Positions 8,904 through 61,540 of a stretch of DNA of 64,000 nucleotides are shown in pieces. Made by a program: the position numbers and the translations under genes. The number at the start of each line of letters is the position of its first letter. Positions within the stretch are counted from its first letter, which is position 1. The notes beneath the pieces were generated by a model, which was not told the DNA's origin, searched no databases, and saw only the letters and a program-made list of their open reading frames with translations. The stretch is from Leuctra nigra (taxonomy: Eukaryota; Arthropoda; Insecta; Plecoptera; Leuctridae): positions 24,436,069 to 24,500,068 of the forward strand of contig OW203771.1 in assembly GCA_934045905.1 (NCBI GenBank). The letters run 5' to 3'.

Positions 8904-8960
8904 ATGGCAGAAGGAGGAAGGCTACCGGAACAAACCCAATTGGGTTATCAACATACTTTG
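8904..8960 (+). CDS. ClC-a: ClC-a exon 1 (residues 1-19)
   Basis: Encodes [19 protein letters not shown] and stops at a strong donor, GTAAGT. Phase 0 out. The next exon begins [10 protein letters not shown], which continues the conserved N-terminus of this channel family. Confidence 0.85.
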
Positions 8961-9639
8961 GTAAGTAAATAAAGACAATACTTGACATCTTGTAAGTAGA
9001 CAATTTCACCGGCGTTTTTTGAAGTTTGTTTTGAATGAATATGAATAGAGTTGACGCCAATAGGAAATATCACTGGATTATTTTTAACTTCACTCAAGCT
9101 CAACCATGAGCTCTAGGGTAAACATCCAGTGGTGGATCGGGTTTTCAATGAAATTCATAGAAAATGCAGTATTGGTTTATATATGAAGCATACAATTTTA
9201 TTTGTCTTGTATTGGGTATGAACAATATAAAAAATATAGCATAAATTTATTAGTTGACAGCAGACTTATAAAAAAATTATTGCCTTGTGCTAATTTGATC
9301 CACCACTGGGATGAGACCCGGTTGTGCGTCAGTTATCTAGTGGAGCGGTCGCTCCACCCAGCCAAGTCGTACCGTACACTCACACTCACTCAACATACCG
9401 TAAATGCATAATAAACTGAGGAGCAGACCAACCACTTTTATTGTAAGCAACAACATGGCATTTTCGGCCTACTGGATCTTAAAATTGGAAAATCTCACAT
9501 TGTTGCGATATATCTTAATTTCGAGCTATGGCCCACCCCACTACATATACCAAATTAGGGCACAATATGTTAAGCCGTTTGCGAGCTAGAGGGCCGTGAA
9601 AAACGTGAAATTACACCCCTTTTAAAACCTATCTTGATC

Positions 9640-9670
<31 letters not shown>

Positions 9671-12600: not shown

Positions 12601-15600
12601 TAATATTTAAAACCAAAATATACTTGGCGCATCGTTTTTAAGGGCATTATAGGTAGCTACATATGATTTTTGGCATATACTTCTATTACTATTTATATAC
12701 ACGATGCGCCAAGTATATTTTGGTTTTTAATATTATGTTTTGACTTGGCACATTTTTTGATATCTTTACTTTTCAGTGCAGAATTTTTAGATTTATTTTA
12801 TTTTTTTATAGTTCAAGAGACTTGGCTGGTATTTTTACACGGAGTGTTTTTTATGGGGATTATATTTACACGAGCCAAAAAACATTTAATAAATCACCAA
12901 TCTCACAAGCTCTACAAGAGCTTGATTGTAGGAATAAACACATTAAAAACACCCAGAAAAGACAATTGAAATATAAGAACACAATCAAACGGAGCACCAA
13001 AAACAACTTTCAAATGAATACATCATTTAGTGAATCTAGTGGAGCGGTCGCTCCACGCCAGCCAAGTCGTACGGCGCGCACACTCTCATATAAAAAGGCT
13101 GGAGCAACCCACTTTTACTGTAAGCATCAAAGTGGCATTTTCGGCCTACTGGATATCAAAATTGGAAAATCTCACATTGTTGCGAAATATCTTATTTCGA
13201 GTAATGGCCAACCCTACAACATAAACCAAATTTGGGAGCAATAGGTTACGCCGTTTGCGAACTAGAGGGCCGTGAAAACTGTGAAATTGTACGGCTTTCA
13301 GATAATAATAATAATGATGATTCATCTTCCAATAAATTACGCGGTCTCCGCCACAGCCTAAACGGCTAGGTTGATTGACCCGAAATTTTCACCACATATA
13401 CAGCTCGTCTGCCTGATGATACCTTGCCCTTATGAATTTTTTGTGCCGCCATTTTGAAACCGGAAGTGACGTCATATCTCAAAAACGACTTAACCGATCG
13501 GAACGAAATTTGCGCCAATCGATTCAGACGGTACTCTTTAAGAAATAACAATAGTGAAATTAAAGTTTTCTAATTACTGAAACCGGAAATGACGTCATAG
13601 TTTAGCGAAATCTGCCTAAATTCACTTCCCTTTCTATAAAAACCAACTACATATTCAGAAGGCTTATAATGAAATATTAGTATTTATATACATATTAATA
13701 CAATGTGTAAGAGCTTTCAGTCGCCATTTTGAAAACCGGAAGTGATGCCATATCTCGAAAACGGCTGGACCTATTGGAACGATGCTTTCGCAATTCTTCA
13801 TGGCATATCACTTTAAGTTTATATTTAGCTCCAGACAATATTTTTTTAGTAACTAATTCGGAAATGGCGTATTTTTTTAAAGAAATTAGCCATTGTTGCC
13901 CTAATAAGTTTTACAAGTTGTGTGAATAAACTGAAAAAATAAGTGATATCCCCATAAAAAACACTCCGTGTAAAAAAACAGCCAAGTCTCTTCAACTAAA
14001 AATAAATTATGAAATCTAAAATTTCTGCACTGAAACGTAGTGATATCAAAAAATTAGCCAAGTCAAAACTTTATTTGAAAATTAAAAAATACTTGGCGCA
14101 TCGTTTTTTTTTTAGGGCATTGTAGGTATAGGTACTATAAGTATATATGTATTTATATCAAGCCTATACTTCTAAGCTATTTATATACACGATGCGCCAA
14201 GTATTTTTTAATTTTCAAATAAAGTTTTGACTTGCCTAATTTTTTGATATCACTACGTTTCAGTGCAGAATTTTTAGATTTCATAATTTTTTTTTAGTTG
14301 AAGAGACTTGGCTGTTTTTTTACACGGAGTGTTTTTTATGGGGTATATACTTCAATAAGTACTATTGCTAAGCGCTATGTACGTTTTTATAATTTTAAAC
14401 AATTTAAAATGAGGACGTGGTGCTGGTCTTTTTTGATGTCACTACTTTTCAGAGCTGAATTTTCATTATGTATGTAAAATTAGGTATATTCGTAAGACAT
14501 AAATTTCCAAAATAATGTCAGTGAGCTAAATTTTCCACTAGGTCAAAATTATATTATTCTGTAAATAGAAACAGCAGTGACAATGAATTTGTTATGAGTT
14601 CGGTGTACAGAAAGTTGCCACTTTTAACGCTCGCATTGCATAAGATAAGTAAATTACAAAATATTTGTGTTCAAATCCAGATTTCTCGACTCGTTGATTA
14701 AACGAAACTTATCATCTATATCAATTAGTAAAGACAGACAATAATGAGACCTGCGGTGTCATTTAGTAAATAAATCGAGTATCTGGCCAGGAAACAGGAA
14801 ATAGCTGTCAAAAATTAGCATAAAGTTGTCACAGAAAATGTGTTTCCTATCACCGTGGGAAAACCACGAATAACCAGCAAAATGCCAGCTATAGCTAATT
14901 ATTTTAAATCTCCTTCAAGTACGAAATTTTCACCTAATAGATATCGCTAAGTACTTATCCATTTTGCCCACTGTGATAATTGCTAACAATAATTACCTCT
15001 TTATCTGATTACAAATGCATGTAATAATTCAGGTCTAAGTCAGTGCACCGACCTTGGTCCCATAGGCGTGCGCACGAAGGGGGCCGGGGGGAGGGGCCTT
15101 GGCCCCCCCTAATGGGTCAGCCTCAACTTAAAAATTATAAAATGTGGTCCTCATAACGTGTCAAAATTTTGTTTTGAAAGGGTTTAAACAAAAAAAAATC
15201 TCCCTGCGGGGCAGACTAGATTTGCTCAAATCAACGGAATCAAGTACTAGGTTGATCAAAAACACAATATTTGGAGAAAATACCACGCAAACAATGCTTA
15301 TAAAGTACCTTTCAAAAACACGATTTTTCGTGAATTTCTAGGTTTTTCCCCTAAAAATTATTTATTTTTAATATGCCTCAAAATTGCTCAAATATTAATT
15401 ATTTGACTACGTTTCATGATTTCCCTTAGTCAAGATCAAATTATGAAAAGATACCCTTCTCACCATATTAACAGTGCTAAAGAATATATGAGCCCACTTC
15501 CTTGTATTTGAATTATTCCACACTTATAATACGTATAATGGACTTAGTAATTACAACATGAAATCTTTCTTATATCGTCATTGACAAAACTATAATATAG

Positions 15601-18600
15601 CCATTACTATAAGTAGCTTGATTCATAGATACTTGCTCTAATAGAAAGAGGAAAGTGTACCTATTTGTAAATTTCTTTCCACTTTTAGGATAGAAAGATG
15701 TCTTTAAAAAACGATGCGCCAAGTTCTTTTGTAAAGAATTTCTCGGTGTTTATACTTTTATTTCAAAAATACTATTAAATATTTGGAAATGTCATTGACT
15801 TGGCTCCTTTTTTGATATCACTCCTTTTCAATATTGATTTTTTTTAAAGTAAAGTGACTTGGCTGCCTTTTTTCCTCGAGTGTTTTTTTCTGGGATATAA
15901 TTACTGTATAGCTTTATTCTTTTGCATTGCTTGCTGAAAACTTGCTGGTGAAATTTGATTGATCGATAATTTGATATAAAAGATGTTTCAGAAGGCAGAT
16001 GTTTTCAAACGATTTCAATGTATAGATGGTTAATGGAATTATCCAACATACTAAATGTGTACTTCATATGATTCATTAAAGTGGCGCGTTTGTCTTTCGA
16101 TGCTCCTTGGGAGTTAAATTCAAGTATCTATCCTTAATTTAAATTTTGAAATAATCCGAGATGTGTTTTTTAAATCAATACAATATAATATATGTATCAT
16201 TATTATAAATACTCATTATAATTAGACAGACCAAACGAATAATTAGTGAAAATAGCCAAAACTTCGGGACTTCGTTGTATTGATTGTACAAAAGTACGAA
16301 ATGTAGATAGGAGACCTACTAAGTTCAATTCCTGACACTGCTACTTACTCGTTACTACTCGTTTACGAATATACATGTTCTGATTACCTACTACTTCAAT
16401 GCATGTATGATTTCAATGCAGATGTATGGGCATTACACAGAGAAGCTCGGGAATTTTGCCAAAGAAGAAGCAAGAAGAATAAAGAATATTCAGAAAGACC
16501 GAGAGCACGAGATTCACCATGCAAAGCAGGTAAATGATAAACAACGAAATAATTCAAATAAGGTAAATCAAACATGGCAAGTGGCTTATACCTCGTTCAT
16601 ACTATTAAAGATAATCTCTGTTAAATATTTGATCCCCAGAATGCATGTTAGTTAACTTTGATGACGTTAAGACATAACAGAGTTTCAGGAACTCGGTTAT
16701 CTTTTAACAGAGATTAAGTTAATGGATATCAAAAATCACAGTGTGAACAGGGTATAGCGGTAAATTTTTTGTGTTAAATTACTACAAAAATAGGTGTGAC
16801 AAATTGAATCAAATACACTGATCGAATTGATTACTTATTAAATTATTGTATTTGCTATTATTTTTTGTGCATTTATTGTGGGGCTAACAATATTTTATAA
16901 TGCTAAATGTTTTGGTTAAAAAATGCTTTTTATGTATTTTAAAATAATTGCCTATGTGTATTAGATTCCAGAGAGCATCAGGTAATTTATTAACTTAATT
17001 GAAAAATGGATTTTATATGGATTTTTAAATGGACCAGCATAACCGGGTAACTGTACGGGTAGGTAACCTGTTTTAATTGATATTATATGGATCCTGAAAC
17101 GAAAGCCCAACTGTATGGCTACGGGATGCATAAGTCCGCTTTTTTTTAAATTGAAAAAATGGATTTTATACGATTTGTAAAGGATGTCTAGCAATAGCAC
17201 TCATGGATTATTTATTACATTCGTATTTTTAAAATTTGTATAATTTTTTTTTTAAATCTGAAAATCTGAAAATACGATTACGAAAATATTCGTATTTTTC
17301 TGATATTTTTATGTGCTTTTTTGTTTATCTCATATTTTATATTTTTTTGGTGGTGATTTTGTTTGCATGATTATTTTTATTTCCATGTGAGATTTTTTTT
17401 ATATTTTGCTTATTATATCAACAAACAGTTTTGTATAAAATAATATATAAAATCTTATTTTCAGAAATATTTTTTACGTGATTTATTACCAATTTGAAGA
17501 AGATTTCCATGCATTCTTTTGTCATTACGACTTTTTTCTATTACTCATTTATTTAGTTTTTTGAAAATTTTATATTTTTAATATGAAGGTCATGGTGATT
17601 TAAAATGTGATGGTGATTTAAAAAAGTTAATAATCATAATTTGTACTCTTCGTTATTTTATAATTTTGTTCTCAAGTGATCTGTGATTATATTCTGTGCA
17701 TCACTGAATGCAACGTCTCAAGCTCTTGAGTCTTGCACAGGGCACAGTTAGCTCATGCTGGAGACACGTGTTCAGCAAGCTGGGCGAGGACTGGATATTC
17801 CTGGGACTGCTCGGCATCATCATGGCTGTCATCAGCTTCTTCCTGGACCATGCAGTGCGAGCGCTATATCATGGCTATATCTTGAGTCTTGCACAGGGCA
17901 CAGCCTTGTCATCACGCTGGAAACGTGCTGTACAAATGTTCAGCAAGCTGGGCGAGGACTGGATATTCCTGGGACTGCTCGGCATCATCATGGCTGTCAT
18001 CAGCTTCTTCCTGGACCATGCAGTGCGGTCGCTATCATGGCTATATCTTGAGTCTTGCACAGGGCACAGCCTTGTCATCACGCTGGAAACGTGCGGTACA
18101 AATGTTCAGCAAGCTGGGCGAGGACTGGATATTCCTGGGACTGCTCGGCATCATCATGGCTGTCATCAGCTTCTTCCTGGACCATGCAGTGCGGTCGCTA
18201 TCATGGCTATATCTTGAGTCTTGCACAGGGCACAGCCTTGTCATCACGCTGGAAACGTGCTGTACAAATGTTCAGCAAGCTGGGCGAGGACTGGATATTC
18301 CTGGGACTGCTTGGCATCATCATGGCGGTCATCAGCTTCTTCCTGGACCATGCAGTGCGAGCGCTATATCATGGCTATATCTTGAGTCTTGCACAGGGCA
18401 CAGCCTTGTCATCACGCTGGAAACGTGCGGTACAAATGTTCAGCAAGCTGGGCGAGGACTGGATATTCCTGGGACTGCTCGGCATCATCATGGCGGTCAT
18501 CAGTTTCTTCCTGGACCATGCAGTGCGAGCGCTATATCATGGTGTGTAGACATTATCAAGTTTTACCTTTTGAGTTTTTGGATTTTTCACCGAGTATGAA

Positions 18601-21600
18601 AAGTGTGTGTGTGTGAGTAACTGATCGGCTTGTGGATGTTGTAGCTCGAATATGGCTATATGAAGACATCACGTCGACACCACTGCTGCAGTATCTGTTG
18701 TGGATCTTACTGCCAGTGTTGCTCATTCTCTTCTCAGCAGGCTTCGTGCAAATAGTCTCTCCACAAGCGACAGGTATATCACCACGAATGGGGAATTTAC
18801 ATAATAGACATTATGCTGTTTGTATTGACAATCAAAGAATTGAATTCTTTGGAAATCCTGTCCTAACTTTATTTTGTCGTTATTTGTCATTATTTGTCGT
18901 GTTTAACACTTTGAGGTCGCAACAGAGGTCATAAAGTACTCCAGTGTGCGGCATTATTTAGTCTATTGGGCTGTTATAGGTCATTATTATCTGATTTTTT
19001 TAAATAATTTAGTGGGAAGAAAAAATTTCAAAAACGCTCTGACGAACCGTGCGATTCCCGTTCGCTTCCGTTTGCCTCTTAACAAAATAGGACTTCATAT
19101 ACGAGTATTAAGAACAGTTCAATGAAAATAATTTCATAGTTTGGAATAAGTTATTAGTTTTATTTTGTCCAACAGTTGTTTAGTGCCACAATTTTACTAT
19201 TTTTTGGGCACTAAACGTATGTAGGACAAAGCCTAATTATGTTTTAACAGTCATTGGAAAGATATTGATAATAATCGATTAAAAAACTCTTCAAGGTCAA
19301 ACTCACTTCCCAACCGTCTTAAATCAGGACGGTATTTTTTAGGGCATTCCATAATTTTATTTAATCGATATAATTTCTTATTTTCTTATGAGTCGTATTG
19401 AAAAAGTAATCTGACTTTTCTCTTGCCACTTCACTCCGCCACATCCTCTACTACTGTTGGCTCTGAGAAGCCATCTTGATATTGTTGCGAATCTAATGGA
19501 ACTGTTCTACTTGCCAGGATCTGGAGTTCCCGAAGTGAAAACAATTCTGCGAGGCGTTGAGCTAGAAGAGTTCTTCACAATGAAAACGCTGGTTGCCAAA
19601 GTGATAGGTCTGATAGCGACATTGGGAAGTGGCATTCCTCTAGGAAAGGAGGTAATCGTTTCGAAATGTATTTATTAGTATTTATTGTATTTATTGTATT
19701 TATTGTATTTATTATTATAAGACTTGAAGGAAAATAGGATATGTTCTATTTGAAAAGGCTGAAGAGATGTCTTGAATTCTAGTGGACGCGTGTTAAATCC
19801 AAGTCTTGAATTCAACCCACTTGAAGGGTTGAAATCAAGGAAACTTGAATCGGTAATTCAGCCGTTACAGAAATTATAAATAATTAAGCAAAAGTAATTA
19901 TATAAAATATGTTATAAATATAAATAAAATATTTTTTAAATATTATATTATTATAAATAAATAATTTAGACGTGTTTATGACACAATCGCGCGTGTTTAT
20001 GACTAAATGCGTGATGTTTAGGTTAATTAGCTTAATAGAGAGTATAAAATAAATAACATTCTATTCGTGGTAACTTCATAACAATACCAAGACTGTGATT
20101 TTGTGACTGTGACTTGATGTTATGTTATTTTACATTTACCTAAGTTACAAAAATCCACAACACGCAACTGTATTTACAATTTGTAATAAAAAAAAATAGT
20201 TGCGAATAATAAAAAAAATACTCCTCGCCGATGTGGTCCGGACTAAATAGGCGTTTTTTATTTAGTTTTTTTTTAGTTTTTTTTACGATATAGATTACGC
20301 GCTGTAAAAAACTGACCCAGAGATATTTTAAAATTTAGATAATTGTTTCAAAGTTTTTTTTTTATTTGTGGGGAATTTCAGGATTTTTAACGCTGTGCCA
20401 TTTAGGCTGCATTTCACCAAGATTCTAAACCCGGGTTAGAGGCGGTAAACCTGGTTTAGAGGCCCCTAAACCAGGTTTACCGCCTCTAAACCGGGTTTAG
20501 AATCTTGGTGAAACGCAGCCTTAGAGGCATGAAAAGGAATCTGTGTGTGTTACTGTTTGCAGGCACCCTTTGTCCATGTGGCAAGTATAATCGCCAGTCA
20601 GTTGTCGAAGTTGTCATCATCATTCCACGGTGTCTATGAGAATCAGTCAAGGAAGACAGACATGCTGGCAGCGGCCTGTGCAGTGGGCCTGGCATCGTGC
20701 TTCGCCGCCCCCATTGGAGGTAACACCTTCATTCATTATTCATTTCGGATGTTGGACTATTTTTGATGCAAAAGTCGCCTATCTTCAAAATAGTAAAAGC
20801 AAGGTTATTTTGTATTTTTAGACCAAGAAAATATACATTTAGCTAATATTTTAACATTTTATTTTATCAAAAATATGCTGGCACTTTTTTTTCATAAAAT
20901 AAAATATAACATATAAATAAAATACACATTCAGCTAATATTTTACAATTTTATTTTTAAAGAATATCCTATCAATATTTTTGATACGGGATTGATAAATA
21001 AAGTTAAAGCAATGTGCTCTTGTATTTTCCTCAATTAAAATCCATTGGCACTAATTTTGTATTTTTAGACCATAAAAATACACATTTAGTTAATATTAAA
21101 AAATAATTAAAAGAAATATACCTGATTATTTTCGATACTGTGATTGATAAAAATAGTAAATCCAGGGGTATCTTTCTTGTCTTTTCCTCAATTAAAATCC
21201 TGGTACATATTTTGTGATTTTATACCAAGAAACCAAGAAAATACACTTGCATTTAACGTTTTAAAGTTTAAACATTTATTTTTTAAATCCTATATTTGTA
21301 TTATTTTTCTCTGTACTGGGATTGGTAAAATTAGTACGTAAGCAAAATACACTTGTATTTTTCTTCAATTAATATCCACTGGCATTTATTTTGTACTTTT
21401 AGAGCAGGGGTCGGCAACCTGCGGCTCCTTAGTGGCTCTTTAAAGGCTATTTACAATTTAAATAAAGATATGAATGCAAAAAATTCGACAATTTGAAAAA
21501 ATAACGCCTGCTGTTTAATTCAGTTTGATCATTTTAGAGCCCCTGTATAACTTCTGGAATCAAAAAATTAGATAATTCGGTTAAAAAAACGCCCTGAGGG

Positions 21601-24600
21601 ACAACAATTAAAAGGTTGTTTGATTCAGTTTACTCATTTTAGAGACCCTGAATCACTGTTAAATGGTTGAAATTCTAAAAACAAAAACCCTGCGGGGCAA
21701 CAACTAAATATCAAAGTAACCAAATAATCAAAATATTAATTTATTATTTTCAGTTTTTTATATTTAATTACCTCTTCTGCGTCTCCCATTATTATCTACT
21801 TTATTAATATTTTTGAAATAAGTTCCTCGACCCAAAAATGTTGCCGACCCCTGTTTTAGAGCAATTAAAATACTCTAGCAGATAATGTGTTCCTATTAGG
21901 TATTGTTAGCAGGTATGACCAAGTGTCCTTGTGTTTAAGGCTTGCTCTACAGTATTGAAGTGACGTCCGTGTACTTCGCCGTGAGGAACTACTCTCGTGG
22001 CTTCTTCGCTGCTGTCACATGTGTCCTTGTGTTTAAGGCTTGCTCTACAGTATTGAAGTGACGTCCGTGTACTTCGCCGTGAGGAACTACTCGCGTGGCT
22101 TCTTCGCTGCTGTCACATGTGTCCTTGTGTTTAAGGCTTGCTCTACAGTATTGAAGTGACGTCCGTCTACTTCGCCGTGAGGAACTACTCTCGTGGCTTC
22201 TTCGCTGCTGTCACATGTGTCCTTGTGTTTAAGGCTTGCTCTACAGTATTGAAGTGACGTCCGTGTACTTCGCCGTGAGGAACTACTCGCGTGGCTTCTT
22301 CGCTGCTGTCACATGTGTCCTTGTGTTTAAGGCTTGCTCTACAGTATTGAAGTGACGTCCGTGTACTTGGCCGTGAGGAACTACTCTCGTGGCTTCTTCG
22401 CTGCTGTCACATGTGTCCTTGTGTTTAAGGCTTGCTCTACAGTATTGAAGTGACGTCCGTGTACTTGGCCGTGAGGAACTACTCTCGTGGCTTCTTCGCT
22501 GCTGTCACATGTGTCCTTGTGTTTAAGGCTTGCTCTACAGTATTGAAGTGACGTCCGTGTACTTCGCCGTGAGGAACTACTCTCGTGGCTTCTTCGCTGC
22601 TGTCACATGTGTCCTTGTGTTTAAGGCTTGCTCTACAGTATTGAAGTGACGTCCGTGTACTTCGCCGTGAGGAACTACTCTCGTGGCTTCTTCGCTGCTG
22701 TCACATGTGTCCTTGTGTTTAAGGCTTGCTCTACAGTATTGAAGTGACGTCCGTGTACTTCGCCGTGAGGAACTACTCTCGTGGCTTCTTCGCTGCTGTC
22801 ACATGTGTCCTTGTGTTTAAGGCTTGCTCTACAGTATTGAAGTGACGTCCGTGTACTTCGCCGTGAGGAACTACTCTCGTGGCTTCTTCGCTGCTGTCAC
22901 ATGTGTCCTTGTGTTTAAGGCTTGCTCTACAGTATTGAAGTGACGTCCGTGTACTTCGCCGTGAGGAACTACTCGCGTGGCTTCTTCGCTGCTGTCACAT
23001 GTGTCCTTGTGTTTAAGGCTTGCTCTACAGTATTGAAGTGACGTCCGTGTACTTCGCCGTGAGGAACTACTCGCGTGGCTTCTTCGCTGCTGTCACATGT
23101 GTCCTTGTGTTTAAGGCTTGCTCTACAGTATTGAAGTGACGTCCGTCTACTTCGCCGTGAGGAACTACTCGCGTGGCTTCTTCGCTGCTGTCACATGTGT
23201 CCTTGTGTTTAAGGCTTGCTCTACAGTATTGAAGTGACGTCCGTGTACTTCGCCGTGAGGAACTACTCGCGTGGCTTCTTCGCTGCTGTCACATGTGTCC
23301 TTGTGTTTAAGGCTTGCTCTACAGTATTGAAGTGACGTCCGTCTACTTCGCCGTGAGGAACTACTCGCGTGGCTTCTTCGCTGCTGTCACATGTGTCCTT
23401 GTGTTTAAGGCTTGCTCTACAGTATTGAAGTGACGTCCGTGTACTTCGCCGTGAGGAACTACTCGCGTGGCTTCTTCGCTGCTGTCACATGTGTCCTTGT
23501 GTTTAAGGCTTGCTCTACAGTATTGAAGTGACGTCCGTCTACTTCGCCGTGAGGAACTACTCGCGTGGCTTCTTCGCTGCTGTCACATGTGTCCTTGTGT
23601 TTAAGGCTTGCTCTACAGTATTGAAGTGACGTCCGTGTACTTCGCCGTGAGGAACTACTCGCATGGCTTCTTCGCTGCTGTCACATGTGTCCTTGTGTTT
23701 AAGGCTTGCTCTACAGTATTGAAGTGACGTCCGTGTACTTCGCCGTGAGGAACTACTCGCGTGGCTTCTTCGCTGCTGTCACATGTGTCCTTGTGTTTAA
23801 GGCTTGCTCTACAGTATTGAAGTGACGTCCGTCTACTTCGCCGTGAGGAACTACTCGCGTGGCTTCTTCGCTGCTGTCACATGTGTCCTTGTGTTTAAGG
23901 CTTGCTCTACAGTATTGAAGTGACGTCCGTCTACTTCGCCGTGAGGAACTACTCTCGTGGCTTCTTCGCTGCTGTCACATGTGTCCTTGTGTTTAAGGCT
24001 TGCTCTACAGTATTGAAGTGACGTCCGTCTACTTCGCCGTGAGGAACTACTCGCGTGGCTTCTTCGCTGCTGTCACATGTGTCCTTGTGTTTAAGGCTTG
24101 CTCTACAGTATTGAAGTGACGTCCGTGTACTTCGCCGTGAGGAACTACTCGCGTGGCTTCTTCGCTGCTGTCACATGTGTCCTTGTGTTTAAGGCTTGCT
24201 CTACAGTATTGAAGTGACGTCCGTGTACTTCGCCGTGAGGAACTACTCGCGTGGCTTCTTCGCTGCTGTCACATGTGTCCTTGTGTTTAAGGCTTGCTCT
24301 ACAGTATTGAAGTGACGTCCGTGTACTTCGCCGTGAGGAACTACTCTCGTGGCTTCTTCGCTGCTGTCACATGTGTCCTTGTGTTTAAGGCTTGCTCTAC
24401 AGTATTGAAGTGACGTCCGTGTACTTCGCCGTGAGGAACTACTCTCGTGGCTTCTTCGCTGCTGTCACATGTGTCCTTGTGTTTAAGGCTTGCTCTACAG
24501 TATTGAAGTGACGTCCGTGTACTTCGCCGTGAGGAACTACTCTCGTGGCTTCTTCGCTGCTGTCACATGTGTCCTTGTGTTTAAGGCTTGCTCTACAGTA

Positions 24601-27600
24601 TTGAAGTGACGTCCGTGTACTTCGCCGTGAGGAACTACTCGCGTGGCTTCTTCGCTGCTGTCACATGTGTCCTTGTGTTTAAGGCTTGCTCTACAGTATT
24701 GAAGTGACGTCCGTCTACTTCGCCGTGAGGAACTACTCGCGTGGCTTCTTCGCTGCTGTCACATGTGTCCTTGTGTTTAAGGCTTGCTCTACAGTATTGA
24801 AGTGACGTCCGTCTACTTCGCCGTGAGGAACTACTCTCGTGGCTTCTTCGCTGCTGTCACATGTGTCCTTGTGTTTAAGGCTTGCTCTACAGTATTGAAG
24901 TGACGTCCGTCTACTTCGCCGTGAGGAACTACTCGCGTGGCTTCTTCGCTGCTGTCACATGTGTCCTTGTGTTTAAGGCTTGCTCTACAGTATTGAAGTG
25001 ACGTCCGTGTACTTCGCCGTGAGGAACTACTCGCGTGGCTTCTTCGCTGCTGTCACATGTGTCCTTGTGTTTAAGGCTTGCTCTACAGTATTGAAGTGAC
25101 GTCCGTGTACTTCGCCGTGAGGAACTACTCGCGTGGCTTCTTCGCTGCTGTCACATGTGTCCTTGTGTTTAAGGCTTGCTCTACAGTATTGAAGTGACGT
25201 CCGTGTACTTCGCCGTGAGGAACTACTCTCGTGGCTTCTTCGCTGCTGTCACATGTGTCCTTGTGTTTAAGGCTTGCTCTACAGTATTGAAGTGACGTCC
25301 GTGTACTTCGCCGTGAGGAACTACTCTCGTGGCTTCTTCGCTGCTGTCACATGTGTCCTTGTGTTTAAGGCTTGCTCTACAGTATTGAAGTGACGTCCGT
25401 GTACTTCGCCGTGAGGAACTACTCTCGTGGCTTCTTCGCTGCTGTCACATGTGTCCTTGTGTTTAAGGCTTGCTCTACAGTATTGAAGTGACGTCCGTGT
25501 ACTTCGCCGTGAGGAACTACTCGCGTGGCTTCTTCGCTGCTGTCACATGTGTCCTTGTGTTTAAGGCTTGCTCTACAGTATTGAAGTGACGTCCGTGTAC
25601 TTCGCCGTGAGGAACTACTCTCGTGGCTTCTTCGCTGCTGTCACATGTGTCCTTGTGTTTAAGGCTTGCTCTACAGTATTGAAGTGACGTCCGTGTACTT
25701 CGCCGTGAGGAACTACTCGCGTGGCTTCTTCGCTGCTGTCACATGTGTCCTTGTGTTTAAGGCTTGCTCTACAGTATTGAAGTGACGTCCGTGTACTTCG
25801 CCGTGAGGAACTACTCTCGTGGCTTCTTCGCTGCTGTCACATGTGTCCTTGTGTTTAAGGCTTGCTCTACAGTATTGAAGTGACGTCCGTGTACTTCGCC
25901 GTGAGGAACTACTCTCGTGGCTTCTTCGCTGCTGTCACATGTGTCCTTGTGTTTAAGGCTTGCTCTACAGTATTGAAGTGACGTCCGTGTACTTCGCCGT
26001 GAGGAACTACTCGCGTGGCTTCTTCGCTGCTGTCACATGTGTCCTTGTGTTTAAGGCTTGCTCTACAGTATTGAAGTGACGTCCGTGTACTTCGCCGTGA
26101 GGAACTACTCGCGTGGCTTCTTCGCTGCTGTCACATGTGTCCTTGTGTTTAAGGCTTGCTCTACAGTATTGAAGTGACGTCCGTGTACTTCGCCGTGAGG
26201 AACTACTCTCGTGGCTTCTTCGCTGCTGTCACATGTGTCCTTGTGTTTAAGGCTTGCTCTACAGTATTGAAGTGACGTCCGTGTACTTCGCCGTGAGGAA
26301 CTACTCTCGTGGCTTCTTCGCTGCTGTCACATGCGTGACCGTGTTCCGACTGTTCGCGGTTTGGTTCGAGCATGAAGGTGACGCTGATACATCTCCCATA
26401 CTGCAGACTAGACTGTTTTCATGATTCTCAATCGGAATCATGATCAGAATTGAATCAAAGTATATTCAAAATGTACTCTCAAGCAGATTTTTTAACCATT
26501 TTCTACTGTCAGTTATTGTAGCTGCAGCGTATAGGGATGGAGCGAACTTGAATTTTGATATCGACTATCGATATCATTTATATCGATATATATCAATATA
26601 TCGATACTTCGACATATCGATATATTGTGATATCGATACTTCGATATATCGATATATTAAAATATCGATACTTCGATTTATCGATATATCAATGATATTG
26701 AAATATCGAATTATCGAAATATTAAAATATCGAAATATTGAAATATTGATATATCGATATATCGAAATATTGATATATGGAAATAATATATTTCTATGTA
26801 AAGGTATGGAAATATTTATATACGCATGAATGCCTTAAATTGCTCCTAAAACTGATAGGAATTTCAAAATAAAATGATAAAAGAAATAACGCAGCCGTTC
26901 CAAAATATAGGGTAACCAGCCAGATAAGAAAGAAAATGTGAATAATCTGTGAAATTTTCAATAATCTGGTAAACGCTGCACTGCAAATATGAATTATTTT
27001 GCCATAGTAGGTATAAACTTCAATTAAGAACATAATTGTATCATGGTTAAGCTTTAATTTATCGATATATCAATATTGAAATATTGAAATATTGAAATAT
27101 CGTATATCGATATTTCGATATTTCAATATATCGCAATTTCGATATTTTTTCATATCGCAATAAATAACGTTGTATCAATATTTTCTCCATCCCTACTGCA
27201 GCGTACCACCTGCAAGTGAATGAAAGGTAAACCCTGTCCTTTATACTACAGTACTAGAGCTGTGTTAGTTGCAAGGGTTTACCTTTCAAGGACATTATTA
27301 ATTATTTAGTATTTATTTGCAAACAGAACTGAATCCACAAGTGCAAATATAATAAACAACATAGAACATACACTTAAATATAAAATATAATTAAAATATA
27401 GTAAAACAGTAGACACATGAGATAAATAAAATAGAAAATGTTTCTTATAAATTATAAATTTTCCATCAAATAAATATAATATAAGTAATCGTTGGTACAT
27501 TCTAATAAAATATAAATGTTCCATAAAATAAATATAACATTGATAATCGTTTTTAATACAAAGTCTTGCCCCCAAATTATCTCTGCCTTAGTCTCAAAAT

Positions 27601-30600
27601 TAATCAAAATCACTATTAGGAAAAGAGTTATCAGACTGTTGTTTACTCGAATAAAATATCTATTCAATTTTATGTAGTTGCAGATTTAGTTTCTATAATC
27701 TTCGTTATATGCATGTTCTTAGTAGAAAATATATGTGTTTGGGCCAAGTCACTTAGATGTAATCAATTATCACTGCACATTTGTTTTGTTTCTTTTCACT
27801 ATTTGACTTTGGCTTTTTCTATCACCTATTGTTACTTTTCTTTACTTCACTGGCATTTTGTCACCAAAACCAAAAGCATATCTCTTTGTCATTTCTCTTT
27901 TCAATAAAATCTATTTAATCCTTTCTGCAGTTTAATCTTTTTCTACAACCCTCTTCACGTTCAGACACAGTCCAACCTCTTAATTGTCCTAATCTGAAAT
28001 AAGGCGACGTTGTCTATTTTCGAGACACTTCTTCTAGCCCTTTGTGCTGGCCAATTGGTCGTGTTATCAAGCTATTTCCAGGACGTGACGAAGTCGTGCG
28101 GGTAGTCTCTATTCGCACTCCTCACGGCACTGTCAACCGCTTGTCAACCGCTTGGTGACCCTCCCTACTGGTGTGGATTCTCCAATCTCTTGAAGACAAC
28201 CTCCAGACACTAATCAAGAGAGCTTCCTGTACCATCACCAAGATGCTGAGCTCCATTTTTCAAGATATCTAATTCCTTTATGTATCTAATTTTTTCGATT
28301 TAAAAATTCTCATTTTGGTGGGCCGTATGTTTGCGTTAAGGCCGGGTTGGACCAACTCTGGATTAAGTTAACTAACGATGAATCCAGTTGGCGCGAATTC
28401 CACAGCCAATAAGATTCACTAATTTTTACTAACCATCTAGTGGAGCGGTCGCTCCACCCAGCCAAGTCGTACTATACACTCACAGTCACTCAACATACCG
28501 TAAATGCCTAATAAACTGAGGAGCAGACCAAACACTTTTACTGTAAGCAACAACATGGCATTTTCGGCCTACTGGATCTTAAAATTGGAAAATCTCACAT
28601 TGTTGTGAAATGTCTTAATTTCGAGCTATGGCCCACCCCACCCCATTTGGGAACAACAGGTTTTGCCATTTGCGAGCTAGAGGGCCATGAAAACAGTGAA
28701 ATTATACCCCTTCTTAAAGCTATCTGATGATGATGATTCAGATATCAGGAAACATTGTTGACAGGGCCACAGCCTAAACGGCTGAACCGATCGACCTGAA
28801 ACTTTTACCACATATGCACTTTTGGCGTCTGATGATACCTTGCCTCTTGTGATTTTTTGTGCCGCCATTTTTAAACCGGAAGTGACGTCATAACTCAAAA
28901 ACGTCTGGACCGATTAGAACGAAATTAGCGCCATTCGATTTAGATGGTCATCTTTATGAAGTATCAATAAAAAAAATATTATTTTCTTATTTTCTAAACC
29001 GGAAGTGACGTCATAAATACGCAATATTTAACTTATTTCAACAAATTATACTTAAAATACATACATAATTAACTTACATTGTAACATAGACAATACAATT
29101 TATATATTCAAGGTAGCAGTGTTCTCGGCCGCCATTCCTGAAACCGGAAATGACGTCATATATCTAAAACGCCTGTACCGATTGCAACTGAACTAGCTCC
29201 TGCGTATTCATTCTGCTATTTATTTGAAAAATCAATTGTGAAAAATGAATAAATAAATTAATGGTACCGGAAATGGCGGCAGGAACCACTAAATGAAACC
29301 GGAAGTGACGTCATATATTACAAACGGCATGACCGATTTTACGGAAATATAGGGATTAGGAATTCAGATGGTCGTTCATGAAGGTATCAAATAGATAAAA
29401 CTAGATTGTTTTCTTATTACCTATACCGGAATTCGGCCGCTATTTCAAAACCGGAAGTGACGTCATGTATCGAAAACGGCTGGATCGATTATAACGAAAC
29501 TTAAGCTATTCTTCTTGGATAATCATTTTCATCTTATACCAAACGCAACTTTTCATAGTAACCAAATCGGTTGAGGCGTATTTTTTTAAAGAAATTAGTC
29601 CCTGCTCGGACATGTGCTACAAGCTGTATGAATAAACTAACAAAAGAAGTGATATCCCAGAAAAAACACTCCGTGTAAAAAAGGCAGCCAAGTCTCTTTA
29701 CTTTAAAAAAATTCAACACCGAAAAGGAGTGATATCAAAAAAGGAGCCAAGTCAATGACATTTCCAAATATTTAATCGTATTTTTGAAATAAAAGAATAA
29801 ACACCGAGAAATACTTTTCTAAAGGACTTAGCGCATCGTTTTTTTAAAGACATTTTTCTATAAGCATAAGCATAAGTCATTTATATACAACAGTCATTAA
29901 GAATTTTTAGAATAATAGGGAAACATCCTTCAATTACATATTATACATACCTACTGTAAAATATTTTCTATTTGAATATATACGCGATGAAACTTGTTGT
30001 CTATGTTTTCTATAAATACACAATAGTTATCTTCGTAATATTGTTTCGTGGTCAACATAATTAAGTCTCATGCGTTATACCTTCTCATCATGAAATACAT
30101 TTCAATTAATCCACATTTTATAACAATACATTTCACAAAGTACACAGTCACATTGTATTTCTATTAAAAAAAATATCTTTATACTTTAAAAATATATAAT
30201 AGTGTTCCATAGATAGTTAGTAATTATTTGACAACGTTTCATGAATTCCTTCAGTTAAGATCAAATTATGAAAAGATACCCTTCTAATATCACCATATTA
30301 ACAGTAGGTACTGCAAGAATATGTATGAGCCCACTTCCAATTGTTATTTAATTCTTCCATCCTTATATTACTTATCTATTACAGCATGAAATCTTTCTTC
30401 TCGCCATTGACAAAACTATAAAATAGCCAATACTAAAAGTAGCTTGATTCATAGATTCTAAATCTAATAGAAAGAGGAAAATGTACCTACTTGTAAATTT
30501 CTTTCCACTTTTAGGATAGAATTATGTCTTTAAAAAAACGATGCGCCAAGTCCTTTTGTAAAGTATTTCTCGCTGTTTATTCTTTTATTTCAAAAATACG

Positions 30601-33600
30601 ATTAAATATTTGGAAATGTCATTGACTTGGCTCCTTTTTTGATATCACTCCTTTTCGGTGTTGAATTTTTTTAAAGTAAAGAGACTTGGCTGCCTTTTTT
30701 ACACGGAGTGTTTTTTCTGGTCAATAACTAACTTAATCCAGAGTTGGTCCTACCTGGCCTAAGTCACTTAGATGTAATCAATTATCACTGCACATTTGTT
30801 TCGTTTCTTTTCAAATTTTCCCTATGACACTATTTGACTTTGGCTTTTTCTATCACATATTGTTACTTTTCCTTACATCACTGGCATTTTGTCACCAAAA
30901 CCAAAAGCATTCTCTCTTTGTCATTTCTCTTTTCAATAAAACCTATGTAATCCTTTCTGCAGTGTACTCTTTCTCTACAACCCTCTTCACGTTCAGATAC
31001 AGTCCACCTCTCAATCAAACAATATGTAAAGGTTTAAGGTAGGTATCACCCTAGCCTACCCTGTGACAAACATTTCTGCAGATTTTAACCAATATTTATT
31101 ACATTCTAACACATGAATTGCTGCAAAAATTTAAATATTAAGTTTTTGATTTGTTTTATAGATTTTTCATTGTTGTGATTCATAACAATGGAAAAAACAC
31201 TATTTTTCAAAAACGATTACTTTTTACTGGTTACTCCTAGAGACCTGTATTTTTTTGTAAGGATTTATGAATGTTATAAATGTTTTGAGGGGGCGGGTTT
31301 ACTTTTTAAAATAATTGAAGTAATTACAAATGTATTGTAATTTTTTAAATTATTACCAATAAAAAATTATTCAAACTATAATATAAAATTGAGTATGAGC
31401 TGTAAAGAAAAAATAGGTCGTCGAAACATGGACGATATGTTTATCTACTGAACAATAAAATAATGTGAATATCTTTCAAAAAGGAAAGATATCTTGTTTG
31501 AAAGATACACAAATCCAGGAAAACCTAGTTCTGTGATACGGAGCTAAAAGATACACACACTAAGGCAATGTAGTACCTACCTGATACACTGTCATATTAA
31601 AATTTAATTATAAAATTGAATATATAGCAGGAAGAAGTGACACATTTAAATATACATTGAAAAAAAATGGAAAAATAAGAAATTAATATCACTTGCGTAA
31701 TACATTACTAATTTAATAACTTCCGTATTGTTTCATTTCAGAGACTTTGACTGCTTTATACGAGACTAATTTTAATGCTCACGTTCCATTTGACATTAAA
31801 GAGTTGATTGCGTTTGCTTTGATGGGGTAAGCAAATGAACTTTGAACTGAATCGACGAATAATAAAGTGGAATTCAACATTGCTATGGAATGTTACAGAG
31901 TAATATGTGGATTAGGAGGCGCAGCGTATGTCTGGCTCCATCGACAATATGTATTTGCCATGAGAAGAAATACGTATCTCACCAGTTTTTTACAGAAAAA
32001 GTAAGACATTCATCTGAATCATCTGAATCTGTATTGGAGAAAAATATTAAATGATAATGGTAGTTTCGGTATAGTATAGTTTCGGTATAACTATGCATCT
32101 TTATTTCACATTTTAATATGATATTTAAATCAATATTCATTTCTAAATAAGATAAATTCCCCATACAACAATGATATGATATGATATGAAGAGGACGTTT
32201 TCAATGCTAATCGTACATTTGATTTCAGTCGCTTCTTGTACCCATTCATCGTTGCGCTGACATTTGCATCGGTGTCTTTTCCTCTTGGCCTCGGCCAATT
32301 CATGGCTGCAGAGTTAGACACCCACCATCAGGTAACAACAAGACGCGGGACGCTTATGACCTCGGTATTGCCAGAGTGTACATTGATACGGCACCAAGGA
32401 AGACGTTCGGTCCTGTTCGTGTCCCGCCACGGTCGGAAACATCAGATTTCTTCGTGCCTTGTCTCGCTTGAGGGAACGCAATGCTATTGGGAAGTAATAA
32501 AACATTTTATTTGATCTTGCTTATATTTAACTATAATCTAAAATATTAGTTAAAAATTAGTTGATTATACATATACTTACATTTTGAGTTATTCCCAGTT
32601 ATAGTTAAGATATTCTCTATTTTAACTTTGTATTTGTAAAAAACGTTTTTTGTGATTCATCTATCAAAATACCTCTTGTGCGAGAATTTAAGAAAGAACG
32701 AAAATAATAACGAATACCTCTGTCTGAACTTGCACAATATCGTTAGAAAAAAATACAGGCTTAAATTATTAAACAGATAATCTTATGATGCTCACTTTCG
32801 TTCCATATTGAGTTTAAAAAAAAAATTATCTCATATACATTTTACGATATCTTTTTTCACAAATAAATTTGGCAAGTGTTGGCAGACAAAAGCCAAATGC
32901 TAATTAGCCCAATGACAGTGATTATTGTTAATACAGGAAAGGTTTTCATGTACAAAATACGAACAGGGTACATTTCGGAAGTATTGTAAGAAACGAAACG
33001 AGGCCGAACGCAACGAAAGATATTTCTTGGTGTCGTATGAATGTACGGTCTGGTTGAGCGAGCGTAGCGAGCGTCTCCTTTCGGCTCATTTGGCACGGAC
33101 CTCTGTTTTTTTTTGTTTTTTTGTTTTTTTTCTGTTGGGTGAGGCTGTACAGGTCAGAGTTTTTCTTCGATCGATCTGAAATTTTGCACACATGTAGAGA
33201 CAACCTTTTCTGTTTGCAGACCCCAAATTTTTTTTAAATCCATTCATTGGTTAAAATTGAAATAAACATCTCCTGATAGGTTGAAAAATGAAAATGGTAT
33301 TCGATAAATCTGATCAAATTCATATTTTGGCTATACAGGTCAGAGTTTTACTTTGATCTAGCTGAAATTTTGCACACATGTTAAACCAACCTTCTCTGTT
33401 TGCAGACCATATTTTTTTTGAAATCCATTAATTGGTTAAAATTTAAATAAATATCTCCTGATAGGCTGAAAAATGAAAACGGTCTTCGATAATTCAGATC
33501 AAACTCATATTTTGCATGATCATTAAGACTAACATTGTCTCTTATTTTACAAAATTTCATCCCAATCAGTTAAGAACGTATGAACTTATTAACATTTTTA

Positions 33601-36600
33601 ATATCTGTCAGTAATGAAGTATCAAAATGAATGTTTTCCAGTGCCAATTGGATTGAATCTGATTTGTTTTATTTTAACCAGGGTTCTTAGATGCTTAGAT
33701 GTTATTTTCAAGTTTCAATGAAAAGCATAATAATATGTTGTGTTGATTGAGTTATCATATTTCAATTCAATATGGATGTATATGTTTTCTGTGCTTGTGT
33801 ACGCATTTCCGGTTCGAGAATTTGCATGTCCCCGTGCTCGCTCACCAACGCGTTACACTGAGCGTTTTCCTAGTAATACGCATACGGGACTGGGACTGGA
33901 AACAAATAAAATTTAATTTAACCTAATTCACAAGCGTTGAAATACAACAACAGATTTGTACAAGATTCAGTATTCATAATGACCGACAATTCAGTTTTTT
34001 AGAACCATTTTAATAAGTTTGTTCACCAACTTCACCTGGACAAAAGTAATTTCTTTCCCAAATTTAATCAAATTTAATTTAATTTAACTTAATTCACAAA
34101 TGATGTGGAAAATATCTACAACAGATTTTTACAAGATTCAGTTTCATGGCATTGACAGACAATTTAGTTTCTTGGTAACAATTGATTATGTACTACCTAA
34201 GTGTTGTTTAGATTATAGATTTATTCACCAACTTCACGTGGACAAAAGAAGAGCTGAATGCTGAAGAGGCTTATGTGTTGCGGCATTGGGTGACCCCGTA
34301 CTCCGACGTGTTCGTCAGCCTGGCGGGGTTCGTCGTGTACACGGTAACACCACATTCACTTCAGACTGACCCTGGCGGGGTTCGTCGTGTACACGGTAAC
34401 ACCACATTCACTTCAGACTGACCCTGGCGGGGTTCGTCGTGTACACGGTAACACCACATTCACTTCAGACTGACCCTGGCGGGGTTCGTCGTGTACACGG
34501 TAACACCTCATTCACTTCAGACTGACCCTGGCGGGGTTCGTCGTGTACACGGTAACACCTCATTCACTTCAGACTGACCCTGGCGGGGTTCGTCGTGTAC
34601 ACGGTAACACCACATTCACTTCAGACTGACCCTGGCGGGGTTCGTCGTGTACACGGTAACACCACATTCACTTCAGACTGACCCTGGCGGGGTTCGTCGT
34701 GTACACGGTAACACCACATTCACTTCAGACTGACCCTGGCGGGGTTCGTCGTTACACGGTAACACCACATTCACTTCAGACTGACCCTGGCGGGGTTCGT
34801 CGTGTACACGGTAACACCACATTCACTTCAGACTGACCCTGGCGGGGTTCGTCGTGTACACGGTAACACCACATTCACTTCAGACTGACCCTGGCGGGGT
34901 TCGTCGTTACACGGTAACACCTCATTCACTTCGGCAAAGTCAATCCATGGATATCGATTGGCTACTGAGAAAAGTCATTAAATTAACAAATTCACAACAT
35001 ATTTACATTTATTTATTTTATTTCATAAAAAATTAAACATCTTCAAATATTTGGAGATAGTTGTTTATATTTTTTTCGTTGAAAAAAGTAGTAAAAGTTA
35101 TGAAAGTCTTCGATGATCATTTTTTGTGAAGAACATATCTTCACATATTTTAAGGGAAGAGGAATTTTCTATTTACTAAAAATTACTTGGAGCATCGTTT
35201 TTTGTGTATTATAGATAGGACCTATATTATAGATATAAGTTGGTTACATACATTGATATCTGGCCTGCTCGTCTATTATTTATACACGATGCGCCAAGTA
35301 TTTTATCGATTTTTTAAATAGTTTTGACTTGGTCCATATTTTGATATCACTATTTTTTAATGCTTAATTTTAGATTTCTTTAATTTTTTTCTTAGTTGCA
35401 GAGACTAAGCTGCCTTATTTACATGGAGTGTTTTTTCTGGGATAATCATAACTGTAAAACATAAAGAATGTATTTTTTTTATTTGTTATTGTTTCATTAC
35501 CCAAAAGTATAATTATTAAAGTGAAATAATATGATATATATTGAATAACTACCTTTAAAATTATTTTTCCTTAGGGCTGTGGGATGAAATATTGTATTCC
35601 CACTCAAATTAAAAGGTGGTTTAGATGAGATAAAAATCCAAAATTTATCTTGTTTATCTTATATAAGAAAATATTTCAATAGTACAAAAAAATGACTTAC
35701 TGATTTCTAGGTAAATAATAAGAGTAACTTATGTCGTGAAATGATGCACGTTCGCTAAAATAACATATGTCGAGTAAAGAGGTGTGAATCATCTAATGTT
35801 TTCTATGGTTTGGATTTCAGTTCATTTTCTCTATAATTGGTGCTACAGTCGCTATTCCGTCCGGCAACTTCATCCCCGTGTTTAAACTGGGAGCTGGATT
35901 GGGACGTCTCTTGGGCGAGCTGATGCATTGCTGGTTTCCCAACGGCATGAGTTTTAATGGCCTGGTGATCCCCATCATACCAGGTACTGATAACAAAAAA
36001 CAACTCTGTACCATGCCGGTATACTATCAAACACACAAATTACTAGGAGGCCTGTAGAAGACAGCCAAAGCGCTGTCGAAATATTGCCTCCGTATTTTAA
36101 TTTGTGTTTTTATATTCCGGCATCAATATATATATAAAATATATTATATAAAAATTATACTGGCGTCACGAACAGGTTGGCTGGGTGGTAACGCTCTGAA
36201 CTTGTATTCCGGAAGCCCGGGTTCGATTCCCGCGGCAGTCCTTCCTGACTGGGGTTTTTTCGTGGTATTCCCTCAGTCCACAGGCAAATGCTGGAAAGGT
36301 ATACCCTACTAATAGGCCACGACCGCCTCCTTCCCACCTTTCATCCTCACCTACTCTTCACCATCATCTCCCAATCATCATCATAGTCATTCATCCGTCG
36401 ACATTAGCCTCGCTGCAGAACAGTGCGACGACGTTAAGCCCCAGACAAAAAAAATATACCGGCGTCGTCCAGAGTAGGGTTTTTATCATATTCATTACCG
36501 GTACATTAACTTCATCGTTTTATTATATCAGGTACTGTTTCATTTTTTTTTGTCTGGGGCACAACCTTACCGAGCGTTGTGCCCAAATTTGCCAATCTCC

Positions 36601-39600
36601 TTCTTCATCTTCGTAATTGTCCGTTGTTTACCCAATGGTTAATTGCGTCTATGGTAGGGGGAACCGTGAAAAGCCCTCTGAAGCCTTTCCAGTATAACTC
36701 GCGTAGCTGTGTTGCGTGGTGCTTGGCAGCGTCACGCTAACGCGCGATTAGATGACATTACGACATTTTGTCTGGTATATATGAAGCAGAACGTCTCGTT
36801 TCCCTTGAAGAGAGTTTTATATTGTTGCTGCTGTGATTTATTTAAGAGGCAAACGGAAGCAAACGGGAATCGCACGTGGTTCGTCAGAGCGTTTTTTGGT
36901 CTTCCCACTTAATAATTTTAAAAAATCATATAGTAAAGTAACGACCCATAACAGCCTAATAGACTAAATAAAGCCGCACACTTGAGTTCATTATGGCCTC
37001 TGGTACGTCCTCAAAGTGTTATATACGATATTTTTAGTAAAATAATCGTATTTAACACTTTGAGGTCGTACTAGAGGTCATGAAGTACTTCAATATGTGG
37101 CATCATTTAGTCTTTTAGACTGAAATGGGTCGTTACTATCTGATTTTTTAAAATTATTTAGTGGGAAGACAAAATTTCAAAAAAAAAAACGCTCTGACGA
37201 ACCGTGCGATTCCCGTTTGCTTCCGTTGGCCTTTTAACGCTAATAATGAAGCAATGAGTGAACCTAAATATTCCATCAGATCACACAATATGCGAAGTAT
37301 TGTGGAAATGAGAGACATGTTGACTGTGTGTTCTAGGAGGATACGCCACCGCCGGTGCCGCTGCCTTCACGGGCGCAGTCACTCATTCCATATCAGTAGC
37401 TGTGATTGTTGTCGAGATGACTGGGCAATTGACTCATTTAATGCCAATTATTGTAAGACATACTCAAATAATCAAGTCATGACCCATTACGTCCGTGATA
37501 CGATGATGATGGTGTTGCATTTCTCTTCCAGATTGCCGTGTTAATATCTAACGCGATAGCCGCTCTGCTCCAGCCGTCTTTGTATGAGAGTATGATTCTG
37601 ATCAAGAAGCTGCCGTACCTGCCGGTGCTTCTGCCGTTCTCGTCAGGTAATAGGTCGTTGCCAGCCCGCTTGGTACCTTTATTGTTTTTAAAGTGCGTTT
37701 TAGTCGAGTGGATATGATCCACTCAATCAACATAAAAGTATTATGATTTTCATCGAAACATGAAAATAGCATGGTACCAATAGCAATTCAGATTTAATTC
37801 AATTGGCATTGGAAAACATTCATTTCGATACTTCATTGCTGACAGCTATTAAAAATTTAAATAAGTTCATAGTTACTATCAGGAGATATTTATTTTAATT
37901 TTAACCAATTAATGGATTTCAAAAAAAATCAGGGTCAGCAAACAGAGAAGGTTGTCTTTACATGTGTGCAAAATTTCAGATCGATCGGTGAAACGGTGCG
38001 ACCTGTGTATAATTAATAGCAGAAAAAAAGAGATCCGTGCTAAAAGAGCCAAAAGGAGACGCTCGCTTCGCTCGCTTAAAAATCAATATCCATTTAATGA
38101 CAGCGCTTTGAAACATGCTTCCTTCCTCAGGCTTGTACAGCGTGTGTGTCGAAGCATTCATGGTCCGCAATGTGAAGTACATTTGGTACAACATGAGCTA
38201 CGAATCGCTGGTGAAGATATTGATGCAGAGTCGCTCGTTGAAGGGTTTTCCGTTGGTCGACAATCCCGACTCCATGATTCTTCTCGGCTCGATTCAGCGC
38301 TTTGAGCTCATCAGACTGATTGAGAGTCAAGTTGGCAGAGAGAGACGACTCAAAGTTGCAGCCAGGAGGCGTCGAGAAGAAGACCATATGTGAGTCACTA
38401 CAGTTTGTTTTTCCTTTGATTGAACTCTCAACAGACGGAGCCACAGTCAGTTGTTCTGTAAGGCCGAGAAAGACAACATTGCAAGGTGAGCGCGCAATGA
38501 AGTCTTTCTCGGCCTAGCAGAACAACTGACTGTGGCTCCATCTGGTGAGAGTTTATACAGCAAAAAAAATAGACTGTATTCGCACAAAAACAATCCGATC
38601 TGCACTCTGGTGATAGAAATGTGTACTTGAGGAAGTGGTTTCAGAATTATATTCTCATAAGGAACGTGTAGAGTTAAGATACCTCTACTTCATACACTAT
38701 TAAACATAGAACCCTGAAAAAAGTAACGAGTAAAGAAAAGATTATGCTTTATCGATCTGTCTCCTCAGAATTTTATTTATTGTGTTTAAATAATTAGTAA
38801 ATTACTTTCCGTATGAGATAAATAACGGATTATCGAGTGGCCTGATTGGTCCGTTAAACCATTTCCTGTCTTCTCATTGGCTGATGCATAACATGTTTGC
38901 ATGATTATTACGCTGCAATTTAAACTCAGAGAAAAATTCTGAGGATACAGATCGATAATGATAATCTTTTTTATACTCGCTACTTTTTTCATGGTTCTAT
39001 GTTTAATAGTGTATGAAGTAGAGGTAACCAAAGTCTATACGTTTCTTATGAGAATTCAATGCTGATCCCACTAACTCAAGTACCACATTTCAACCGCCAG
39101 AGTGCTCTACTGAACTTGATTTAGCGAATACAGCGAAAACGCTTCTTGCTACTACACATTTAGTTACAGTTTTTTTAAGAAAGCACTAAGAAGTGCTTTC
39201 TCCCAACCCCAAAAAGTCAATAACCCAACATAATATTATGTTTTTAATTAACAAATTATTATGATTATTATGATTATTATAATTATTATGTTTTACTCCA
39301 CTATGTTTTATGTATTATGTTTAATGTTTTTTTATTATGTTCCACTTTAAAAGTGGTTGTGGTCCAATGCTGGGGCAAGAGTCTGCAGCTTATAGAATGG
39401 GCCAAGTCATCATTTCAGTTGGTAATTGGTAATTGAAACTTGTAGGTATACGAATATATTTTGATGCGGTGCGATGTGATACCTGGTTCAAAAAAGGAGT
39501 TTCGTTTTATGAGCTCAGTTTATTGATAATATATTCCTGGTTATTTCACACAAAAACGTGTGTATCTCCAAAATTGTCGAAGTTACAATTTCTTTTTTAA

Positions 39601-61383: not shown

Positions 61384-61390
61384 GTATCAC

Positions 61391-61456
61391 TCTTTGTATC
61401 TTCTGATCGGTTGCTGTTGACATAATTCGGGTGACAACGCTTCTTGTTCTCTCACT
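61391..61456 (-). pseudogene. Receptor B exon 2
   Basis: Acceptor TTACTATTACAG; encodes SERTRSVVTRIMSTATDQKI QR; weak donor GTGATA, one codon shorter than gene A. Confidence 0.65.
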
Positions 61457-61540
61457 CTGTAATAGTAAGAAATCAGTGAAAAAGAGTAGTAAATATTTAA
61501 TGAATCTGATTTATCAATACAAATGCTACTCGTATCTTAC

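Follow-up and report, generated by a model that had tools for sequence, protein, structure and literature searches.

How can a gene continue to specify an intact protein when the splice junctions of three of its exons have been multiplied up to 45 times? This question is raised by a 64,000-nt window of the plecopteran Leuctra nigra (assembly GCA_934045905.1, contig OW203771.1, positions 24,436,069 to 24,500,068 of the forward strand), in which we analysed a gene that, judged from its sequence, is an insect ClC-2-type chloride channel gene. Exons 3, 7 and 11 of this gene are each associated with a tandem array, here called A3, A7 and A11, that overlaps an exon–intron boundary and carries an acceptor or a donor in each unit. 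We consider it probable that each array is a minisatellite that was born from a tandem duplication at a splice junction, grew by exchange or slippage, and has been tolerated through exon definition.

A preliminary description of this DNA had reported three arrays of 5, 45 and 12 units with unrelated unit sequences, and both Tandem Repeats Finder (TRF) and unit-by-unit reading bear this out. The units follow one another head to tail and are at least 9 bp long throughout (156–168 bp in A3, 98 bp in A7 and 52/51 bp in A11), and no other array in the window's 39 TRF rows has both a period of 40 bp or more and 4 or more copies. It had also been held that each array expands an exon–intron border next to a unique exon body. 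This is the case for A7, whose unit joins the 16-bp end of intron 6 to the 82 bp with which exon 7 begins, with the acceptor tttaag/G in all units, and for A11, whose unit joins the 25 bp that end exon 11 to 27 bp from the intron side, with the donor TACACG/GTAACACC in all units (the slash marks the splice junction). It is not the case for A3, where a unit holds an acceptor together with the entire exon, leaving no unique exon body, and where the donor at 18542 is unique. The exon copies of A3 begin at 17741, 17897, 18063, 18229 and 18397, with unit starts spaced 156, 166, 166 and 168 bp, and are 133–145 nt long; units 1–4 have GC at the position of the donor GT and thus lack a donor, and unit 1 departs from the other four across its first ~40 bp.

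The 45 copies of A7, at 99% matches in TRF, are not a product of chance. Around the acceptor, the last 17 intron bases and the first 4 exon bases are invariant in 45 of 45 copies. Four sites of the unit vary, and for the two common ones every one of the four possible combinations is present. Within the array, a block of 10 units also recurs at a shift of 9 units (Table 1), a repeat of that length being found in 2 of 2000 shuffles. The site combinations and the shifted block, seen in one haplotype, fit the mark of unequal exchange. Likewise, two variable features occur in all four combinations in A3 units 2–5, by reading. All 12 of the 12 A11 units share the same 14 bases around the donor; elsewhere, one base of the intron part varies, and two surplus units have lost a single base from their exon part. 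When the exon-derived parts of A3 and A7 are taken together, 7 of 10 base differences are synonymous, against 24% expected (binomial ~0.003; A3 sites were classified by reading, and the start of A3 unit 1, with its many clustered differences, and indels were left out). This excess suggests that the variants passed through a coding copy. As a separate observation on A11, made by eye, the joint between units forms an acceptor-like CACTTCAG in 11 of 12 units (34344–34932), ending 21 nt past the donor junction, and surplus units could serve as ~31-nt microexons by means of it.

Such variants also bear on whether the arrays are present in the animal at all. Assembly is difficult where 98-bp units repeat exactly, and copies, or their number, might be an artefact of assembly or amplification. 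We find this quite improbable: simple looping would yield identical units, whereas those of A7 show variant combinations and the 9-unit-shifted block; both array ends continue into unique sequence; and the A3 units differ internally, although the copy number could still be wrong.

To follow the consequences for the protein, the reading frame and the outcome at each surplus site were computed, as were the arrays and units themselves. Exons 1–15, joined with the innermost copy at each array, form an open ClC frame of 643 amino acids, and with these copies human ClC-2 aligns without a gap at joins 3/4, 6/7, 7/8 and 11/12. At exon 7, the innermost acceptor is the only one of 45 that leaves the frame open, all 44 surplus acceptors leading to a premature stop; at exon 11, the first of 12 donors is open and all 11 surplus donors lead to a premature stop; at exon 3, the innermost acceptor is open and three of the four surplus acceptors lead to a stop. 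Because surplus sites mostly truncate the protein and the alignment to human ClC-2 is gapless, an intact channel would need the innermost copies. The view that the protein-preserving site is the innermost one thus stands for all three exons, but it does not hold exclusively at exon 3, where the penultimate acceptor (18229) also leaves the frame open, adding 56 residues with no stop. The accompanying proposal, that decoy splice sites have to be tolerated, is also supported. The strict branch-point motif yTnAy is absent from the 45 bases before all six of the acceptor copies checked, out of 50, and therefore does not distinguish inner from outer copies.

The open penultimate acceptor would suit a reading in which outer copies are used, either as alternative exons or with the outermost exon 3 copy as the true start of exon 3. 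A motif at the start of the exon points the same way. In 119 of the 120 homologs listed, W occupies position −6 and either H or N position −4 ahead of [KR]-[LIV]-GEDW, the remaining one being without the motif; the outermost copy, with KLGEDW preceded by W (−6) and H (−4), matches the homologs at both places, and the innermost copy has W at −9 and is three residues longer. We nevertheless regard use of outer copies as very unlikely. Reading from 17741 through to the donor meets a stop, the surplus sites of A7 and A11 truncate the protein in every instance, and A3 units 1–4 are without the donor that mutually exclusive use would need. Use of the outermost exon 3 copy founders on this same GC in place of GT.

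The explanation by minisatellite birth and exon definition would run as follows. A7 and A11 would each have started when a G+C-rich segment spanning one splice junction was duplicated in tandem, and A3 when the duplicated segment comprised one junction and the whole exon. The arrays would then have grown and homogenised by unequal exchange or slippage, and copies lying between the intron and the innermost copy would have turned into intron. Under exon definition the opposite splice site of the exon, which is single, would be paired with whichever copy lies closest, so that the exon formed is as short as possible (145, 126 and 132 nt for exons 3, 7 and 11) and most surplus sites are left as ignored decoys; the protein would survive because that opposite site is single. 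What we infer here is that the arrays were born by duplication and grew by exchange, that selection acted against those altering an exon, and that correct splicing rests on exon definition.

The lengths of the introns bear on this pairing. The introns flanking exons 3, 7 and 11 measure 1867/103, 5532/5364 and 1880/1477 nt, and the one on the array side is long in each case (1867, 5532 and 1477 nt, arrays included). In human genes whose flanking introns exceed ~250 nt, the splice sites closest across the exon are preferred, according to PMC9225289; in the same paper, minigenes with two identical strong donors used the upstream donor exclusively, and the class with a long upstream and a short downstream intron acted like exon definition. 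By analogy with these results, the presumed choice at exon 11 fits the donor experiment, and exon 3 belongs to the long/short class.

Several observations weigh against this explanation. The likeness of neighbouring A7 units is no higher than in shuffles (568 of 2000), and the synonymous count comprises only 10 sites. That the innermost copies are used is a deduction from the reading frame. In PMC9225289, the upstream preference of acceptors between two long introns was merely reduced, and weakened donors caused the exon to be skipped in larger minigenes; by the same analogy exon 7, which lies between two long introns and has 44 near-identical acceptors upstream, would fit less well. In G+C content the surplus units equal exons, so the contrast between exon and intron is blurred. 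For 66% of the human intron modifications in PMC2812944, transcripts retaining the repeat within the exon are reported as well. The conserved motif lies in the supposedly dead outermost A3 copy and three extra residues lie in the supposedly working one, the opposite of what is expected if a dead copy simply decays. For this last point we prefer a history in which the first A3 duplication came before the working exon underwent a complex in-frame change; the altered exon would then have been copied, and the outermost unit would be a fossil of the earlier state.

A different source for the arrays would be a border-specific process in this species, such as repair, or template switching, coupled to transcription or splicing, that makes tandem copies of exon edges. 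All three large arrays lie on junctions of one gene, and the preliminary description took three such events to point to a shared process. We computed the chance of this from the gene with its surplus copies removed (32150 bp, 38 junctions), using placements that were purely intronic or crossed exactly one junction. Under uniform placement, the probability of crossing a junction is 0.141 for A3, 0.113 for A7 and 0.064 for A11, with a joint value of ~0.001. The units have a G+C content of 51–56%, as compared with 36% for the window, and exons of the gene have 49% and introns 36%. With placements restricted to those whose G+C content exceeds that of the unit or falls short of it by no more than 0.02, the probabilities become 0.70, 0.48 and 0.29 and the joint value rises to ~0.1, because many G+C-rich stretches in this AT-rich gene are exons; the match is itself partly circular, since the units are G+C-rich by virtue of containing exon, and the window was chosen for its odd look. 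The three-of-three coincidence thus neither proves nor excludes a border process, and the step from three events to one shared process is not supported by it.

Other signs of a border process are similarly divided. The joint between A3 units contains, by reading, 5 bp that are absent from both flanks, and exon 4 likewise contains, at 18652, the 10-mer around this joint, ATGGCTATAT, which would be in keeping with a templated joint; the same 10-mer is, however, present at 15595 on the opposite strand as well. The other 17 modelled exons overlap none of the 39 TRF rows beyond those of the three arrays. The preliminary description had also noted that all surplus copies lie on the intron side. This is no evidence for a border-specific process, because any array that crosses one border must look so, and the same protein requires that the surplus be spliced out. 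We hold a border-specific process to be unlikely, and no analysis here separates it from ordinary minisatellite birth followed by selection. To its extension, a lineage-wide process that preferentially turns splice junctions into arrays and leaves many genes with dozens of decoys, we give little credence; if it were true, splicing must rely on strict pairing across exons, and this gene would be one visible case.

The gene and its features are located in Table 1. ClC sequence runs across the transmembrane part, with 570 residues of human ClC-2 aligned to exons 3–15 (E 2e-184), and insect chloride channel protein 2 homologs are 60–67% identical to the predicted product (best 120 of 2388 matches). 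In a quick tree of the best 120 of 2388 ClC matches, the protein stands beside hemipterans with a support of just 0.33. Matches by tblastn, not counting rows inside surplus A3 and A7 copies, back exons 2–15; exon 1 was placed by reading alone and has no homolog match. Of the five provisional 3' exons, three (at 41.6, 43.3 and 45.2 kb) are backed by tblastn and the other two come from reading. The 20-exon join loses the frame past exon 16, with 11 stops, and a linker exon is therefore probably missing from the model beyond that point. Statements on frame refer to exons 1–15, and all 20 exons entered the junction null.

Table 1. Positions of the channel gene, its exons and its arrays within the window.
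Feature	Position	Strand	Basis or remark
ClC-2-type chloride channel gene (predicted), exons 1–15	8904..38389	+	open frame, human ClC-2 alignment, insect homologs, tblastn
Exons 1–5	8904-8960, 16422-16529, 18397-18541, 18645-18773, 19518-19651	+	
Exons 6–10	20563-20719, 26252-26377, 31742-31826, 31899-32000, 32229-32331	+	
Exons 11–15	34212-34343, 35821-35983, 37337-37452, 37532-37646, 38131-38389	+	
Further 3' exons of the same gene, provisional	39850..46540	+	39850-40006, 41645-41792, 43327-43467, 45228-45314, 46343-46540
Array A3, 5 units, each an acceptor and a copy of entire exon 3	17726..18541	+	TRF, unit-by-unit reading
Outermost exon 3 copy	17741..17873	+	start keeps W-x-[HN] motif of insect homologs; innermost copy lost the motif
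Exon 3, innermost copy, 145 nt	18397..18541	+	donor gt at 18542 directly after
Array A7, 45 units of exactly 98 bp	21924..26333	+	TRF, unit-by-unit reading
A7 internal pattern, units 19–28 recurring as units 28–37 (9-unit shift, 882 bp)	23688..25549	+	unit-type string
Exon 7, innermost copy, 126 nt	26252..26377	+	
Array A11, 12 units of 52/51 bp, last one truncated	34319..34932	+	TRF, unit-by-unit reading
Exon 11, 132 nt	34212..34343	+	ends at first A11 donor

The window holds other repeats and candidate genes. A dispersed element is present in five related copies (3632–4820, 9333–10687, 11568–12861, 13034–14343 and 28435–29602), of which those at 3.6 and 28.4 kb are 97% identical; it starts with TCTAGTGGAGCGGTCGCTCCAC in the four copies read (9.3, 11.6, 13.0 and 28.4 kb), and three copies contain long hairpins (10286–10686, 12502–12834 and 13941–14352). 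Two direct repeats of ~1.05 kb, 98.2% identical (49477–50520 and 51678–52739), look like the ends of a 3.3-kb element interrupting a reverse-transcriptase element, and 310 bp of the repeat also occur at 1–310. The reverse-transcriptase element has an RVT_1 match at 48653–49519, its piece after 52740 being assigned by reading only, and matches to the reverse transcriptase are at most 59% identical over 57% of the query (best 120 of 7583). On the minus strand lie two chemoreceptor-like open frames, one at 55173–56360 with a Pfam 7tm_7 match (E 2e-13) and one at 61916–62617 with no Pfam match at E 0.001; the DNA around the second (61390–62530) is 74% identical to 55031–56180.

Tandem exon copies are familiar from mutually exclusive splicing, as in the arthropod muscle myosin heavy chain. 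The present arrays resemble that system in placing tandem exon copies in an arthropod gene, and differ from it in that the copies are nearly identical and lack one of the two splice sites: A3 units 1–4 have no donor, A7 units have only an acceptor and A11 units only a donor. Intron gain by tandem genomic duplication is reportedly the subject of a separate study. As in intron gain of this type (PMC3443670), duplicated exonic sequence here would become intron through the choice of splice site. Unlike in intron gain, there is no sign of a new intron in this gene; introns are merely lengthened, because their other ends (after 16529, after 20719 and before 35821) lie outside the arrays. Each array repeats one kind of splice site, whose partners lie outside it, and thus does not supply both sites of an intron from duplicated copies. 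Under the rule of proximity across the exon, as given in PMC9225289, the copy closest to the opposite splice site should be the one used; the rule was shown with two sites in competition, in human genes and in minigenes, and here 12 or 45 sites compete in an insect gene.

The preliminary description knew of no described system of this kind, but tandem repeats at exon–intron boundaries have been described in human genes. According to PMC2812944, minisatellites in human duplicated genes, some of them at exon–intron boundaries, gave rise to new introns or alternative splicing. Like the arrays analysed here, the human repeats overlap exon borders; they are attributed there to slippage or unequal crossover and are either kept or spliced out (PMC2812944). 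The human repeats have on average four 30-bp units in recent paralogs, with the morpheus family reaching 39 copies, as compared with units of 51–168 bp, up to 45 copies and three arrays in one conserved channel gene here. No insect gene with such arrays was found in the literature searched, which is weak evidence of absence given that most subscription journals lie outside that search. The locus offers a natural experiment on splice-site choice, in which 45 acceptors or 12 donors, near-identical to one another, compete for one partner with the frame intact, and it suggests that minisatellite growth can lengthen introns while leaving the protein untouched. The arrays alone do not demonstrate a new process. 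We conclude that they are real and belong to a known kind, the minisatellites of exon–intron boundaries, of which they form an extreme case.

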